Virus record (IMG/VR): IMGVR_UViG_3300020220_000403
Coordinates: 1 to 21,099 of that record
DNA: 21,099 nt
Source of the DNA: a virus
Strand: one strand, 5' to 3'
Part shown: piece by piece, positions 1,331 through 8,531 of the stretch
How positions within the stretch are numbered: position 1 is the stretch's first letter
Layout: each line of letters opens with the position of its first letter
Made by a program: the position numbers and the translations under genes
Notes under the pieces: model-generated
Seen by the model: the letters and a program-made list of their open reading frames with translations, nothing else
What the model was told of the DNA's origin: nothing
Database searches by the model: none

Positions 1331-1882
1331 TTAGTTAAAATCTAACTCGATATCAAAATCGAAATACACGAATTTAGCAGTAAAAGTCGTAAAGTCTGGA
1401 GTGGCAGAACTATATGAGAGCTTAAAACCGTCTTGACTCTTTAAAATCGGTCTCTTAAATATGATCGACGACACCAAGTATCCTTCATTGTCTAGGAGAG
1501 AAAGTCTCATTGGAGAAAACGTAGGCTGGTTTTTATTATTAAAGTCCAAGTATTTTAGTGCGTTTTCTAAAAAGATAAAATAGTTTAGGTAGGCATCAGT
1601 CAGTTTAAAAGTTAGGGTAAACTCTCTAGTGAATAGGTCGACTACTTGCTTAGAGCTCTTGTATTCCTGTTGCTTACCGAATAGTCTAGTCTGAGTCGCA
1701 GGATCCATAGTCCAACCAGGAAAATCGATAGATTGTATCGTTGCTGACATAAACGCGTCAATAGTATCATACGGTAGGATCAAGCTCTGATAATACTTCT
1801 TGTACTTTTCCTTGATCTCAGGTGCAAAGAAATCAGGCGGAAAGTTAAATATGAATCCGTTTTGTCTTACGTTTAATAGCAT
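1331..1882 (-). CDS. Tail-tube-like virion structural protein
   Basis: 183 residues. The conserved-looking core runs IQSIDFPGW (about 49-57), a VVDLFTREFTLTFKLTDAYLNY block (about 80-101), then FLENALKYLDF, and near the end LSLLDNEGYLVSSIIF and TFTAKFVYFDFDIELDF. A strand rich in F/T/L followed by D-x-x-x-N-Y and an amphipathic helix is the pattern of the tail tube fold (T4 gp19 and the related gp48/gp54). The closing alternating hydrophobic strand also fits. I infer a tube or tube-like baseplate or neck protein. It could instead be a different beta-barrel virion protein of the same fold. The ATG follows the TAG stop of the DUF5824-like gene directly, which suggests coupled translation and membership in the late structural operon. 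Confidence 0.55.
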   Translation of the reverse strand: MLLNVRQNGFIFNFPPDFFAPEIKEKYKKYYQSLILPYDTIDAFMSATIQSIDFPGWTMDPATQTRLFGKQQEYKSSKQVVDLFTREFTLTFKLTDAYLNYFIFLENALKYLDFNNKNQPTFSPMRLSLLDNEGYLVSSIIFKRPILKSQDGFKLSYSSATPDFTTFTAKFVYFDFDIELDFN

Positions 1883-2161
1883 CTATTTCTTTTTATTTCT
1901 TTTTGCCTTTTTAGCTCTTTGCCAGAGGGACTTATCTGCCTTCTGAGTGGTCTTTCCTCCGGTGATAAATGAATTTACTCGTGCCATCGCCCATTGCTGC
2001 TGGGTGACCCCAGGGCGATGTCCAGTCCTCCAAGCCGCCATTCCTTTGTTATATACGGTTCGAAGTATGCCTAACGGAATTCCGCTAGCTTTGGCTTTAT
2101 TCTTAAGAGCGGTCTCCGACTCATTAATTCTGTTATTCAACCACTGATTAAAATTTAACAT
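1883..2161 (-). CDS. DUF5824-like small basic protein with N-terminal capsid-targeting-like peptide
   Basis: 92 residues from the ATG at 2161, which lies one base after the stop of the upstream gene. A longer in-frame start at 2182 would lie inside that gene and would bury the motif. The protein opens with MLNFNQWLNNRINESE: an F-x-Q-W-L core like the T4 internal-protein targeting peptide, then I-N-E/S, which fits the prohead protease rule of [L/I]-x-E before a small residue. The body has SGIPLGILRTVYNKGMAAW (about 26-44), GVTQQQWAMARVNSFITGGK (about 51-70) and a basic tail. This pattern is known from phage proteins assigned, from memory, to DUF5824. Function is unknown. The charge suggests DNA association in the head. 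Confidence 0.72.
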   Translation of the reverse strand: MLNFNQWLNNRINESETALKNKAKASGIPLGILRTVYNKGMAAWRTGHRPGVTQQQWAMARVNSFITGGKTTQKADKSLWQRAKKAKRNKKK

Positions 2162-2162
2162 C

Positions 2163-2852
2163 TTATTTCTCTTTTTTTCCAAGCTGTCTCTTGACCTCTT
2201 CTCTTACTTTCTCCATCTTTTTAGCATAAGCCGGATCGTCCTTACGATTAAAGACGATCTGCTGGTTAAGGCTTCCTGTGATCTTGCGCATGTCTCCTCC
2301 TCTGGTCCTGATCAACCATGCAGCAAGTGCCTTGATTCCCAAGCTCTTAAACTTTCCCTTAGCGTCTGGTGCATCCGAATCGTGCCAGTCTGGAGCACCC
2401 TTGGGTTTTTTACCCTCAGATACTTCGTCCTCGTTCTTAGCTTGCCAATCTGCAGATACTTTATCATCTAGGATAGGTCCGCCTGATGCCCAAGTATAAC
2501 AGGTTCTAGCAGAATGACACTTAAAGTGGTGCATCCAACAGTAACCCAAACGACCGTCGGGATCCGATACTTCGCCTGGCATGCAGGCTTCCATTCTTGG
2601 AGAGATATCGAAGGCCACACAATTACTGCAATTAGATTCCTTAGCTACTTCAGGTTCAGTATTCCATTTCTTAGCATATCTGATCCAGTATTCATCATCA
2701 TTTAGGTTTAGCGGGCCATATTGAATATACTCCGCCTCAATTGCCTTATCTCTGTTTTGAGTGTTTAACTCTAGGTTTTGAGTCGCCATTGGACAAGAAC
2801 CGTTCTCCTTTTCAAGAATTAAGTATTGTCGATAGTTTAATAGGTTTTTCAT
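2163..2852 (-). CDS. Cysteine-rich phage protein, two-domain, with N-terminal capsid-targeting-like peptide
   Basis: 229 residues, starting MKNLLNYRQYLILEK, where the Y-x-Q-Y-L core resembles the targeting peptide of T4 internal proteins. The first domain (about 18-135) has seven cysteines at 20, 75, 78, 90, 105, 112 and 118, and a His-rich stretch CWMHHFKCHSARTC at 105-118. The Cys/His spacing suggests bound zinc or an iron-sulfur centre. After a charged linker, a second domain (about 150-229) begins GAPDWHDSDAPDAKGKFKSL and contains ITGSLNQQIVFNR and a basic helix. Both blocks look like families seen in environmental phages, but I cannot name a function. The ATG overlaps the upstream TGA by four bases (ATGA), and the next gene begins one base past its own stop, so it sits tightly within the cluster. 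Confidence 0.75.
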   Translation of the reverse strand: MKNLLNYRQYLILEKENGSCPMATQNLELNTQNRDKAIEAEYIQYGPLNLNDDEYWIRYAKKWNTEPEVAKESNCSNCVAFDISPRMEACMPGEVSDPDGRLGYCWMHHFKCHSARTCYTWASGGPILDDKVSADWQAKNEDEVSEGKKPKGAPDWHDSDAPDAKGKFKSLGIKALAAWLIRTRGGDMRKITGSLNQQIVFNRKDDPAYAKKMEKVREEVKRQLGKKEK

Positions 2853-3262
2853 TTTTTACCGAATTTTTTTTGATAGGCTAGCGTGTATTTACTAGGTTTA
2901 GTTTTGTATCGTTTGCCCGATTTTGAATAGTCTGCTTTCCAGCCACCGTCCGGATAACTAGTATATGCACTAGCATCATTGTCACTCTTTTTAGCGTGTT
3001 TCTTGATCTCACTCTTCATCTCCCTAGAATCTCGAGTCAAGTATACGGGATTTACTTTTTCCTTTTTTCTCTCGTTCACGAATTGAGAATAGGTCAAGAT
3101 CTTGGACTCATTCTTGGAGATCTCGATAGCTTGTAATTGGTCGACTGCCTTTTCTCGAGTAGGGTGAGTTCCAAGTAACTTACGCTTACCGTTCACCTTC
3201 TTTTTAGAATAGACTTTCCACACATTACCTGACTTTTCTATGGTCTCATTTATCGAATCCAT
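2849..3262 (-). CDS. Small basic phage protein with internal capsid-targeting-like motif
   Basis: 137 residues from ATG at 3262; a GTG at 3265 directly precedes it and is also possible. AAAGGG lies just upstream, one of the few Shine-Dalgarno-like sequences here. Residues about 11-50 form a compact basic module (VWKVYSKKKVNGKRKLLGTH, then PTREKAVDQLQAIE). At 54-64 comes KILTYSQFVNE, which matches the targeting motif found at the N-terminus of neighbouring proteins but here lies internally. The C-terminal part (about 76-137) has SREMKSEIKKHAKKSDNDAS and a lysine-rich KTKPSKYTLAYQKKFG end. The start overlaps the end of the cupin-like gene. The layout suggests a small domain fused in front of an originally N-terminal targeting peptide. 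Molecular function is unknown; the charge suggests nucleic acid contact. Confidence 0.68.
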   Translation of the reverse strand: MDSINETIEKSGNVWKVYSKKKVNGKRKLLGTHPTREKAVDQLQAIEISKNESKILTYSQFVNERKKEKVNPVYLTRDSREMKSEIKKHAKKSDNDASAYTSYPDGGWKADYSKSGKRYKTKPSKYTLAYQKKFGKK

Positions 3263-3527
3263 CACCCTTTATTATTTTTACCTTTAATGTTCCAGTTCCC
3301 CGAATCACCCTGTGCCACTGACCTCTCTCGATAAAAACTGTCGAGTTTAGGCTTTGCGGTAACTTATTCTCCAATTGAATCTTCCAATCAGTAGACTCAA
3401 TTGCTAGTATCGCTCTGTCCTCGTCGTCTCGATGCCAAGTAAACTCTGTGATAGTTGTATCTTGTGAAAATTCACGTATATAAGTATCACTAGATATTTG
3501 AGTCTCTTCGAATAGTAATTGCTTCAT
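3246..3527 (-). CDS. Small cupin-like beta protein
   Basis: 93 residues. The pattern FTWHRDDEDR (29-38), a strand with W48 and Q51, then the turn LPQSL, FIERGQWHRVIRGTG (65-79) and LKVKII is a small jelly-roll, cupin-like protein that I recognise from phage genomes. Histidines 32 and 72 could be metal ligands, but a complete canonical HxH cupin motif is not present, so an enzymatic role is doubtful. The N-terminus MKQLLFEE is only loosely like the targeting peptides of its neighbours because it lacks the Y-x-Q core. No Shine-Dalgarno sequence precedes it; the leader contains TAAAAATAA. The gene ends inside the start of the next gene and sits 17 bases after the hydrolase-like gene. Confidence 0.65.
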   Translation of the reverse strand: MKQLLFEETQISSDTYIREFSQDTTITEFTWHRDDEDRAILAIESTDWKIQLENKLPQSLNSTVFIERGQWHRVIRGTGTLKVKIIKGDGFDK

Positions 3528-3544
3528 GCTATTTTATTTTTAAA

Positions 3545-4144
3545 TCACAGACCAGCAACAGCTGGAACGTTAGTTTCCATGTGACCCGTCTTTTTCTTTG
3601 CCTCACCTGCACTCTTCGCAATTGCATCTCTAGCGATCTTATTATCTGCACCAAAATCAGTATAATAATATTTTACTTTCGATGAATTATTTTTAGTAAA
3701 CTCTTGATAAAAAGAAGATACTTCAGAATTTCCCATCCAAATATCAACTAATAAGACTTTAGAAAAGTCAGAGGCTCTATTCTTTAATAGGGACCTGCCT
3801 GGACGATATCCTCCAGAAAATAGATACAGGACCTTTGATGATGGTTTAATTCCATATTTTTCAAGTTGAGTGAGCACGTTTTTATAAGTTGACTCTCCAT
3901 CTACTTGATGACTAGATGCAACGAATATGTGATACTTGTTTTTTAATTTATCCACATAGTCCCACATGTAGTCTCCGCTCGGTCTTCCACCAACGCGTAT
4001 TCCGCCATAGACTATGAGTAGAGGAGCCGTCTTGTTTTTACAAAACAGGATTTTTCCACCGGAGATAACGGTTTTTTCAGTAGGCATGGACTCAACTTGA
4101 GTCGCATCCTCAAATAATTGTTGATAAGTTAATAGATGCTTCAT
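3545..4144 (-). CDS. Putative alpha/beta-hydrolase-like protein with N-terminal capsid-targeting-like peptide
   Basis: 199 residues from the ATG at 4144. An in-frame extension to 4210 is rejected because it overlaps the upstream gene and hides the MKHLLTYQQLFEDA start. That start has the Y-x-Q-hydrophobic core of the T4 internal-protein targeting peptide. The body alternates strands and helices like a small alpha/beta hydrolase: APLLIVYGGIRVGG (about 40-53) could form the oxyanion region, VLYLFSGGYRPG (105-116) places Ser110 at a nucleophile elbow-like turn, VLLVDIWMG has Asp134, a later turn has Asp163, and TGHMETN places His188 near the end. The Ser-Asp-His order is right, but the elbow lacks the first Gly of GxSxG. 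A lipase or peptidase-like activity is inferred only. The start overlaps the upstream stop as TAATG, indicating coupling. Confidence 0.6.
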   Translation of the reverse strand: MKHLLTYQQLFEDATQVESMPTEKTVISGGKILFCKNKTAPLLIVYGGIRVGGRPSGDYMWDYVDKLKNKYHIFVASSHQVDGESTYKNVLTQLEKYGIKPSSKVLYLFSGGYRPGRSLLKNRASDFSKVLLVDIWMGNSEVSSFYQEFTKNNSSKVKYYYTDFGADNKIARDAIAKSAGEAKKKTGHMETNVPAVAGL

Positions 4145-4716
4145 TACCAAAATCCAGGATAAGTTTTTCCGCCCCAAAGGTGAGCGTAGCGGTTGATGCG
4201 GCAAGCCCAATAGCCAGCCTTAGTCCGGTCCTTCTTCTCAGCACAGTTGTGTCGAGCAGCAAAGGACTTTCTGGCTTTTGGATTGGACACTTTTGCTGTG
4301 AGTCCTCCATGCACATCACCAAACGCGATCTTAATTATTTTTTTTGTTTTAGGGTTTCTCACGTAAACGTGATACTTTTTAGTACCTCCTCTCATGGGAT
4401 AGCCCAATCTAGGTGACTTTTCCTCATTAAGATCCAATACCTCAAGAGGAAGGTCTAATGGAACCGCGTGACCGTTAAATATTCCAGTAAGACCAAGATC
4501 AGTGGACTCAAAGAGTTGGCGATCGTGATCACCCAATATAAGTAGGCCAGCATAAAACTTTTGTCTAGCTTCAGTGAGTAGTTCAAGGTGAGCGTCTGAA
4601 CCCGGTCGAAAAACTGATTCAGCAATGCTGATATCTCGATCAATATGATACTTTAAGCTCTCTGAGATAGCTGACTCACCAATAAATTGAGTAAAACTTT
4701 TTATTCTAGCTTCCAT
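4144..4716 (-). CDS. Conserved phage protein with capsid-targeting-like N-terminus and HNC-KKDRTKAGYWACR motif
   Basis: 190 residues. The N-terminus is SFTQFIGESAISES (7-20), closely matching the T4 targeting peptide core Y/F-x-Q/E-F-I-x-E. Two candidate prohead protease sites, I-G-E/S and I-S-E/S, fall inside it. A middle segment (about 36-96) contains RPGSDAHLELLTEA, FESTDLG and VPLDLPLEV. The C-terminal domain (about 103-190) has YHVYVRNPKTKKIIKIAFGD and the signature ARHNC at 154-158 followed by KKDRTKAGYWACR, with cysteines 158 and 172. I recognise this block from many large phage genomes, but no biochemical function is known to me. It lies just downstream of the gp15-like gene, and GATAAATA occurs in its short leader. 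Head-internal cargo is the best inference. Confidence 0.68.
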   Translation of the reverse strand: MEARIKSFTQFIGESAISESLKYHIDRDISIAESVFRPGSDAHLELLTEARQKFYAGLLILGDHDRQLFESTDLGLTGIFNGHAVPLDLPLEVLDLNEEKSPRLGYPMRGGTKKYHVYVRNPKTKKIIKIAFGDVHGGLTAKVSNPKARKSFAARHNCAEKKDRTKAGYWACRINRYAHLWGGKTYPGFW

Positions 4717-4737: not shown

Positions 4738-5523
4738 TTATTCAGACGGAGGATAATCTTGATCGATCCAACTATCACTAATAGTTGAACGGTCGTCTCC
4801 AGTAGTCTCACGAAGATTAAACTGCTTGATCGTGTTTCCTTTGTATATCTTAGAATGGTCATCAAAACTTGGAAAATAGGTCTCCATGTTTAAGTCTAGG
4901 GATATGCTTACGATATTTGCATCGCTGTAGACAAAACTGTAACTCTTAGTGAATTGTGCAGTCTCAGGAAAGGTGATCTGTGCAGGTACCCTAATTCCTC
5001 TAAACTGGAAGTATCTTACTTGATTCTTATAGTAGAAATCAAAGATCTTTTCCATGATCTTAAAGGTCTTGTTGATGTTATCACTCTCGATCTTGATGTT
5101 ATAGGTAAGAGCCATCGGTAGGGTAAAGAGTCTAGCCGAAAATGCCTTTAGCATCTTTTGATCGTTCTCATCCCTGACCTCCTGATTAAAGCTACCCCGG
5201 ACAAACTTGTTGGTATTATCTGACGGTTTAATGCTAAATGAGGAAAGGGTGACTACTCCCCGTGGCATCTGTTCATAGTTGCCCTCTGCATGATTGGGAT
5301 ACTTACAATCAGTCGGCAGGTCGATAAAAAAGTCTTTCATGAATCCCTCGTCTCCTCCAAAATTGTAGAAGAATGGAATCTCATACTGCTCGACTTTATC
5401 GTTTCGTTTAAGATCAATGACTACTTGTCGATTTAGAAGATCAAGCATGGAAAGGGTAGCGTTTCTAAGAAATATGTCTTGAACGTTCTCGTTTCTGATG
5501 TTTTCGTTATTTGATATTTTCAT
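4738..5523 (-). CDS. T4 gp15-like tail sheath stabiliser / tail completion protein
   Basis: 261 residues. The arrangement parallels T4 gp15, which forms the ring that caps the tail sheath and joins it to the head. Near the N-terminus there is a helix RNATLSMLDLLNRQVVIDLK followed by a strand YEIPFFYNFGG. In the middle comes LFTLPMALTYNIKIESDNIN, then the helix FKIMEKIFDFYYKNQ, and near the end SISLDLNMETYFPSF, like the IVEQILPYF and FEVNGWMYPP stretches of gp15. The length (261 against 272) also agrees. The assignment rests on remembered pattern, so other sheath-terminator or neck proteins remain possible. The ATG lies three bases after the stop of the 703-residue gene, with no Shine-Dalgarno sequence. 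Confidence 0.55.
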   Translation of the reverse strand: MKISNNENIRNENVQDIFLRNATLSMLDLLNRQVVIDLKRNDKVEQYEIPFFYNFGGDEGFMKDFFIDLPTDCKYPNHAEGNYEQMPRGVVTLSSFSIKPSDNTNKFVRGSFNQEVRDENDQKMLKAFSARLFTLPMALTYNIKIESDNINKTFKIMEKIFDFYYKNQVRYFQFRGIRVPAQITFPETAQFTKSYSFVYSDANIVSISLDLNMETYFPSFDDHSKIYKGNTIKQFNLRETTGDDRSTISDSWIDQDYPPSE

Positions 5524-7730: not shown

Positions 7731-8531
7731 TTGAAAAAAAAACAGATCTTGGACCCACTATGGCTGACGAAAGGATCGTACTTGGATCCTGAGTACTTTA
7801 ACTATGTGCTGCTTGCGGCAGGCCAAAGGTATCGTCATGACATCGAGGAAGGAAACCTAGAACACTTTTATGAGCTCTTTTTCCACAGCTTAAACCTAAA
7901 TACCTTGGCATTAGAGGGTAACTTGCGAGATTTTAAGATGCACCCGGCCCTGAAGGGAGAACGAATCAAACAGATCACGGCTGAACTTAAACAAGTATTC
8001 ACCAAAAAGGCTGAGATTGTTGAGATCTTTAGAAACGCAAATTACGTTTTCTTGAATCTTATCCTAGATTACATGGACATACAGCTAGATGTGATGGACA
8101 ACGTTGATTTCTTTTACATGAATGAAATGATTCATGAGCAGTCTGAAATCTTCATAGTAATCAACCAGATCGGAAGTAAAAAGTATTCTATCTGGAAGTT
8201 AACCATGGATCGTAAAAAGGACTTGGGTTACTCCCTTAAGAAGATAAAGACAATAACTATCCAAGAAGTAAAAGAAAAAGCTCTTAGAGAGGCACTAGAT
8301 AGGCTTCAGGATCCTGAATTAGAGAAGATGAAGGAACATAAGAATATTTGCTTTGCTGTCTTAGAGGGACCTCCTGAAAAGATGGTAGCCAATGTGCTTA
8401 AAGACACTATTCTCCTAAACAAAGGAATCGCTAAGGGTATTAAATTTGAGCCCACCATCATTAATGAGATGCACGGATTACTGGTCTCAGAGAGACTCAT
8501 GCCGTTTACCCTAAACCAGTGGATCTATTAA
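7731..8531 (+). CDS. Unknown phage protein, the only plus-strand gene
   Basis: 266 residues, starting at TTG. No ATG or GTG occurs between the upstream in-frame stop and this codon, and GAGAAGAG a few bases before it is a reasonable ribosome site. The protein is mainly helical and soluble with no signal peptide or membrane segment. It includes LDPEYFNYVLLAAGQRYRHD (about 18-37), a YVFLNLILDYMDIQLDVMDN segment, a probable beta strand SEIFIVINQIGSKKYSIWKL, a helix-rich KEKALREALDRLQDPELEKM, and an end MPFTLNQWIY. I do not recognise a family. Position among tail and baseplate genes suggests an assembly factor or minor structural protein, but opposite orientation could equally mean different timing of expression. 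Its stop overlaps the stop of the convergent 106-residue gene, sharing TTAA at 8528-8531. Confidence 0.75.
   Translation: MKKKQILDPLWLTKGSYLDPEYFNYVLLAAGQRYRHDIEEGNLEHFYELFFHSLNLNTLALEGNLRDFKMHPALKGERIKQITAELKQVFTKKAEIVEIFRNANYVFLNLILDYMDIQLDVMDNVDFFYMNEMIHEQSEIFIVINQIGSKKYSIWKLTMDRKKDLGYSLKKIKTITIQEVKEKALREALDRLQDPELEKMKEHKNICFAVLEGPPEKMVANVLKDTILLNKGIAKGIKFEPTIINEMHGLLVSERLMPFTLNQWIY

Follow-up and report, generated by a model that had tools for sequence, protein, structure and literature searches.

In phage T4, the internal protein IPIII is targeted to the head by an N-terminal peptide in which residues 4 and 7 govern targeting and residues 8 and 10 processing, and an Asp at position 10 stops cutting but not targeting (PMC9026906). 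T-even internal proteins combine a common targeting sequence with variable defensive bodies (PMC3012670). The mechanism by which a 10-residue peptide directs proteins into the T4 head is only partly understood. We analysed a stretch of 21,099 bases (IMG/VR virus record IMGVR_UViG_3300020220_000403, positions 1 to 21,099; hereafter the window), part of the genome of a huge, uncultured T4-like phage, in which a sequence-only reading had picked out a cluster of small genes whose products carry T4-like targeting peptides ('tags') and had proposed that they are packaged in the head. Judged by sequence, this interpretation is supported: similar tags are enriched at the N-termini of relatives of the window, and the core of the tag recurs as the tandem repeat of a probable scaffold fused to a prohead protease.

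The five peptides lie where they had been reported, namely MEARIKSFTQFIGES, MKHLLTYQQLFED, MKNLLNYRQYLILEK and MLNFNQWLNNRINES at the N-termini of the proteins starting at 4716, 4144, 2852 and 2161, and ...SKILTYSQFVNERKK at residues 53–67 of the protein starting at 3262. The bodies behind them are, as claimed, mutually unrelated, and the 93-aa gene that the earlier reading had passed over has no tag. The common pattern that it had described is real, although the Gln it included is not required, and the refined signal is [YF]-x-x-[FYWL]-[ILVF]-x-E. Four of the peptides hold aromatic-x-x-aromatic-hydrophobic, and the 199-aa protein has Leu in the second position (YQQLF); candidate cleavage ends of the [L/I]-x-E type are found at the four N-termini (IGE, LFE, ILE and INE) and, as VNE, internally. 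In its original form, [YF]-x-Q-[FYWL]-[FILV], the pattern occurs at 4 of 17 window N-termini against 0.07 expected from internal segments, a test that is circular. Our main relative was G001, a 176-kb contig found among relatives of the 190-aa protein and the nearest large relative of the window; there, 9 of 206 N-termini match (0.45 expected, p = 1e-9), some of them in homologs of window genes. IMG/VR contigs encode at least 80 relatives of the 190-aa protein (closest 89–90% identity), whose N-terminus keeps SF[ST][QE][FY][IL] and in distant ones shifts to forms such as MKYLKLFE. As to the bodies, the earlier labels hold for the 92-aa protein (DUF5824, E = 4e-20) and the Cys-rich 229-aa protein (7 Cys), while the 'hydrolase-like' 199-aa protein resembles alpha/beta hydrolases only weakly in fold (best Foldseek E = 0.01, TM ~0.4). 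Net charge of the tagged window proteins runs from +2 to +18.

For a genome-wide count, we used a motif fixed from the published T4 IPIII mutational data (PMC9026906) and compared N-termini with internal segments of the same proteins. Observed against expected counts were 12/206 versus 0.8 in G001, 14/608 versus 2.7 in G009, 18/507 versus 1.6 in LR756500 (W01), 6/162 versus 1.0 in G007 and 3/99 versus 0.6 in G005; two huge phages fetched as a prediction test gave 18/245 versus 1.6 (LR756504) and 20/233 versus 1.4 (LR756501). N-terminal enrichment was therefore present in 7/7 relatives tested, and the motif did not occur at that rate in internal segments of the same proteomes. Of the conditions that would refute the sequence-only reading, the two open to computation, a missing prohead protease and a motif at background rate, were checked, and neither came true. 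A profile seeded with the T4 peptide and trained on four genomes found 17 proteins in the held-out G001 against 0.8 expected. Random-seed expectation-maximization (EM) without the T4 seed recovered the same motif, with a log-likelihood gain of 364 versus ~175 on shuffled N-termini, and single-genome runs gave IKTFNQFLN (G001), IKKYDEFLN (LR756501) and KEFIDFLNE (LR756504). The random-seed solutions with the best scores were two to three columns out of register and, so displaced, did not rank the T4 tags highly; the in-register solution alone did so, placing them 4th and 5th. The tags found here are conserved at some positions and variable at the last residue, in agreement with the roles of the IPIII residues (PMC9026906).

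The tagged proteins have little else in common. In five genomes, 192 of them fall into 156 body families, the 24/24 tagged bodies in G001 are mutually distinct, and in alignments of 92 and of 47 tagged proteins there is little in common beyond MKxIxx[YF]xxF. Their genes are scattered across the whole genome. A second [LIVF]xE downstream of the tag was not enriched (p = 0.14), and basic charge was rejected as a general mark of tagged proteins, the tagged sets being slightly more basic in G001 and LR756500 only.

A gp21-type (S77) prohead protease, which the sequence-only reading had named as a gene to look for, is present in relatives including G001, and relatives also encode a Gp23-type capsid protein. 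PF03420 (S77, gp21) matched 10 of 13 relatives, six of them above the cut-off, and the frame that contains it is 630–720 aa long in nine of the ten and 211 aa in G008. The G001 domain spans residues 26–147 (41.4 bits, cut-off 27), and the gene for the Gp23 major capsid protein (E = 3e-35) directly follows the fusion. Fused to the protease is an extended segment in which a 14-residue unit of consensus I-x-Y-S-E-Y-L-A-E-N-L-N-K-S, with Glu at 94%, is repeated in tandem up to 14 times. One such repeat is IEYSEYLAENLNKS; the G001 fusion continues after its protease domain with ...INYAEYIKENVNNSIKYQNYLAEELDKGLQYVEYVAEGTNRSIEFGEYLSEN..., and G009 has 13 in-register copies of the type YSEYLAENLDKGIS. 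The repeat is present in 11, 11 and 13 copies in a further three very large records, of 636, 635 and 735 kb. In 33 fusion sequences, many of them closely related, we counted 293 strict T4-tag motifs against 2.8 expected. When the T4-derived pattern was run over every protein, the fusion came first by internal matches in 6/7 genomes, with 6–14 matches, the next protein having 3 or fewer (7 in one case). A second protein of LR756501 (W06, ~21458; 1,691 aa) has seven internal T4-tag motifs besides those of the fusion. AlphaFold gave a fair protease domain (pLDDT mostly 70–80) and, over the repeats, a long low-confidence helix (mean pLDDT 50.7); the models did not reveal how a tag might bind. Contigs assigned to bins of Bacteroidetes, Clostridia and SAR324 genomes (L327, L328 and L329) also carry fusions with 4–7 repeats. 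No repeat scaffold was found in cultured phages among annotated isolates.

The core of the repeat, YSEYLAE, has the same shape as the tag, a likeness that had escaped the sequence-only reading. Run over the N-termini of T4, a scaffold-repeat profile put the two MKTYQEFIAE proteins at the top of 245, with 14.6 each versus 7.2 for the third, although this ranking is not fully blind because the repeat units were gathered with a pattern shaped on the T4 tag. Tags and repeats also occur together: tag enrichment was found in 7/7 phages with repeats and in 0/5 without them, the strict motif not being enriched in Lak-A1, MaF61, Phosso, 121Q or G008. Repeats were not found in T4, cyanophage S-MbCM100, 121Q, Lak-A1, MaF61 or Phosso; T4 and its relative VH7D have three N-terminal tags each. 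MaF61 was at first a candidate for a phage lacking S77, which we rejected: tblastn finds a divergent 1,404-aa S77-type fusion, annotated as prohead scaffold (113692–117906), that the Pfam S77 model misses. No repeats were seen in the 1,072 aa of it that were read and no strict repeat motif in the whole protein, and MaF61 therefore serves only as a phage without repeats. Lak-A1 (W07) N-termini have a different common start, KLxESLFDD (EM gain 140 versus ~109 shuffled; for example, MNKLIKRLIESLFDDIDD, MNKNIKKLLESLFDDDF and MIKEINKLLESLFDDDDD), possibly a tag of its own lineage in a phage that lacks the repeat scaffold.

We consider it probable that the tag is a detached scaffold repeat, which would draw cargo into the prohead and be trimmed there by the protease, the cargo later being ejected with the DNA. 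The window cluster would then be a variable cassette of head-cargo genes, each product bearing a tag of the T4 IPIII kind, [YF]xx[FYWL][ILV]xE. The fusion would supply a rod of 14-residue helical repeats and, because this rod has the same core, a tag may act as a single detached repeat that packs into the scaffold during prohead assembly and brings the attached protein inside. The S77 protease is predicted to cut after [LIV]xE in tags and scaffold repeats, which would both free the cargo and dice the scaffold ahead of DNA packing; the freed cargo would stay with the DNA and later be ejected into the host. The sequences themselves give the tags, their enrichment, the unrelated bodies, the protease, the repeats, the common core and the co-occurrence, with protease and repeats coming from relatives; binding, packaging, cleavage and ejection are inferred. 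We infer that the 190-, 199-, 229-, 92- and 137-aa window proteins are virion cargo, the 137-aa protein, with its tag now internal, least certainly. A wider claim seems to us evenly poised: that any protein acquiring a tag is incorporated in the prohead in place of a scaffold unit, in an open address-label system by which the largest known phages pre-load dozens of host-takeover and anti-defence proteins, and that the T4 tag binds its scaffold by the same repeat-like packing.

Several points, besides the way in which the repeat units were gathered, weigh against the detached-repeat interpretation. Tag and repeat are alike only over the 7-residue core; the register match of their profiles is modest, 112 of 5,000 column permutations being as good (p ~ 0.02); and a search of internal windows with the full 10-column tag profile does not put the scaffold first. 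LR756500 is tagged, yet it has degenerate repeats, with 2 strict copies. Homologs of the 190-aa protein have E, D, K, G or H at P1, so that the Glu is not conserved there. There is no protease in the window, an S77 search of its record finding none, as expected for a fragment. No homology was detected between the fused region and T4 gp22 or 121Q gp602 (hhalign E of 0.48 and 0.29 for gp22), so 'scaffold' is a probable label, given on the grounds of position, the predicted helix and the fusion.

Between the gp15-like and 183-aa genes that flank the cluster, the cassette differs from contig to contig. Where the window has the 199-aa gene, L011 carries an unrelated tagged body with a cyanophycin-synthetase N-terminal domain (E = 2e-41) and L082 another unrelated tagged body of 271 aa, while the slot of the 92-aa gene is taken in G001 by a 154-aa DUF5824 protein with the tag MILTFEQYCILE. 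In L021, L027 and G007, the tag of the 229-aa protein, or its equivalent, directly precedes the C-terminal part and nothing else of the protein. L081 has the body of the window 137-aa protein as an 88-aa homolog starting MTTSSQIMTYSQFINERKKEK; by this comparison, the tag copy of the 137-aa protein is internal because a phrog_3684/DUF2188-like domain stands ahead of the body, and it is a genuine N-terminal tag that a fused domain in front has displaced, a point missed by the sequence-only reading. From the body swaps, the front domain and the direct joins, we conclude that tags and bodies recombine.

A Pfam search with 139 tagged proteins matched leucine-rich repeats (6), DUF5824 (3), ligases, NUDIX, cell-wall hydrolases and Acb1 (1), the majority of the proteins having no known family. 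Matches to topoisomerase, PhoH, RecA and DNA polymerase were also obtained, some of them probably false positives of the score threshold. The Acb1 anti-CBASS domain (PF23474, E = 3.7e-8) is in a G007 protein (L137:12705-13244) with the tag-like start MKTIKDFITEKKS, possibly an anti-defence protein packaged in advance. Tagged leucine-rich-repeat proteins of LR756500 (L161, L155, L168 and L169) start like MKYIKEYEEF.

The alternative that survives best, which we nevertheless hold to be unlikely, shares the recruitment step: the tag would bring proteins to the scaffold core, where they would serve as assembly factors destroyed in the prohead, like T4 core proteins, instead of being injected as effectors. 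A cleavage-type motif common to tag and scaffold repeat fits this view; however, the tagged proteins comprise dozens of unrelated families, the set turns over fast between relatives, and many bodies are folded enzymes or small domains without an evident assembly role (NUDIX, ligases, Acb1 and leucine-rich repeats). We give somewhat less credence still to the idea that an amphipathic N-terminal helix directs these proteins to another compartment (tail lumen, membrane or replication compartment): the peptide is amphipathic and the window cluster sits among tail genes, but tagged genes are found across the whole genome, the motif fits a proven head-targeting peptide position by position, and the tag co-occurs with the repeat scaffold. 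That the likeness reflects chance, paralog ancestry or a general N-terminal composition bias is very improbable and largely refuted, for although the peptides are short and T4, Lak and 121Q also have a mild excess of a loose form of the motif, the signal is reproduced neither by internal segments nor by shuffled N-termini, the tagged bodies of G001 are unrelated to one another, and five control phages lack strict-motif enrichment.

The genes of the cluster and its flanks are listed below.

Table 1. Genes of the tagged cluster and the genes on either side of it (window coordinates).
Feature	Coordinates	Strand	Details
T4 gp15-like tail sheath stabiliser, flanking	4738..5523	-	PF16724, E = 1.1e-5
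190-aa tagged protein	4144..4716	-	tag core FTQFIGE at 4675–4695; C-terminal RKSFAARHNC domain (phrog_7595)
199-aa tagged protein	3545..4144	-	tag core YQQLFED at 4106–4126; body weakly alpha/beta-hydrolase-like
93-aa untagged protein inside cluster	3246..3527	-	most relatives without tag
137/138-aa protein	2849..3265	-	DUF2188/phrog_3684-like front domain; internal tag YSQFVNE (3071–3091); basic body
229-aa tagged Cys-rich protein	2163..2852	-	tag YRQYLILE at 2811–2834
92-aa tagged DUF5824 protein	1883..2161	-	tag FNQWLNNRINE at 2120–2152; net charge +17
183-aa conserved gene, family not known, untagged, flanking	1331..1882	-	

The large genes of the window match structural phage families, and a near-identity search of the whole window against phage records returned no match. 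Among named records, its gp15-like protein has relatives in huge metagenomic phages, Lak phages and Flavobacterium phage MaF61. Further along, a 266-aa gene (7731–8531) without a convincing family match lies on the + strand, opposite to its neighbours, and G001 has an opposite-strand homolog at the same place.

In the open-access literature, with subscription papers outside the search, we found no paper that describes huge phages with dozens of tags or a scaffold repeat resembling the tag; the fusion of a protease to repeats with a tag-like core is new here. A probable scaffold of very large phages with the tag core as its repeat offers a concrete, testable partner for the tag, and the tag itself a simple sequence rule for predicting which huge-phage proteins travel in the virion and act first in a new host.

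Compared with T4 IPI–IPIII (MKTYQEFIAE), the proteins described here share the N-terminal position of the peptide, its aromatic-x-x-aromatic-hydrophobic-x-Glu form, variable bodies and a gp21-type protease in the phage; they differ in that dozens are tagged per genome versus a few in T4, many bodies are not small basic proteins, and the motif is also the tandem repeat of a protease-scaffold protein. As with T4 gp21 (Peptidase_S77), the S77 domain, above the PF03420 cut-off in six relatives, adjoins the Gp23 capsid gene, but a single 630–810-aa fusion with up to 14 repeats stands in place of the separate gp21 and gp22. A parallel is offered by the ejection proteins of phiKZ and SPN3US, where many head proteins are cut by the prohead protease following a Glu and leave the head together with the DNA (PMC9026906); cleavage sites there have few other determinants, whereas here a short common tag is found on unrelated proteins. 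Likened by description and not by tag sequence, the P1 DarB packaging signal is a further parallel, its N-terminal residues sufficing to bring a foreign protein into the head (PMC9024508), although it is known there from a single protein.

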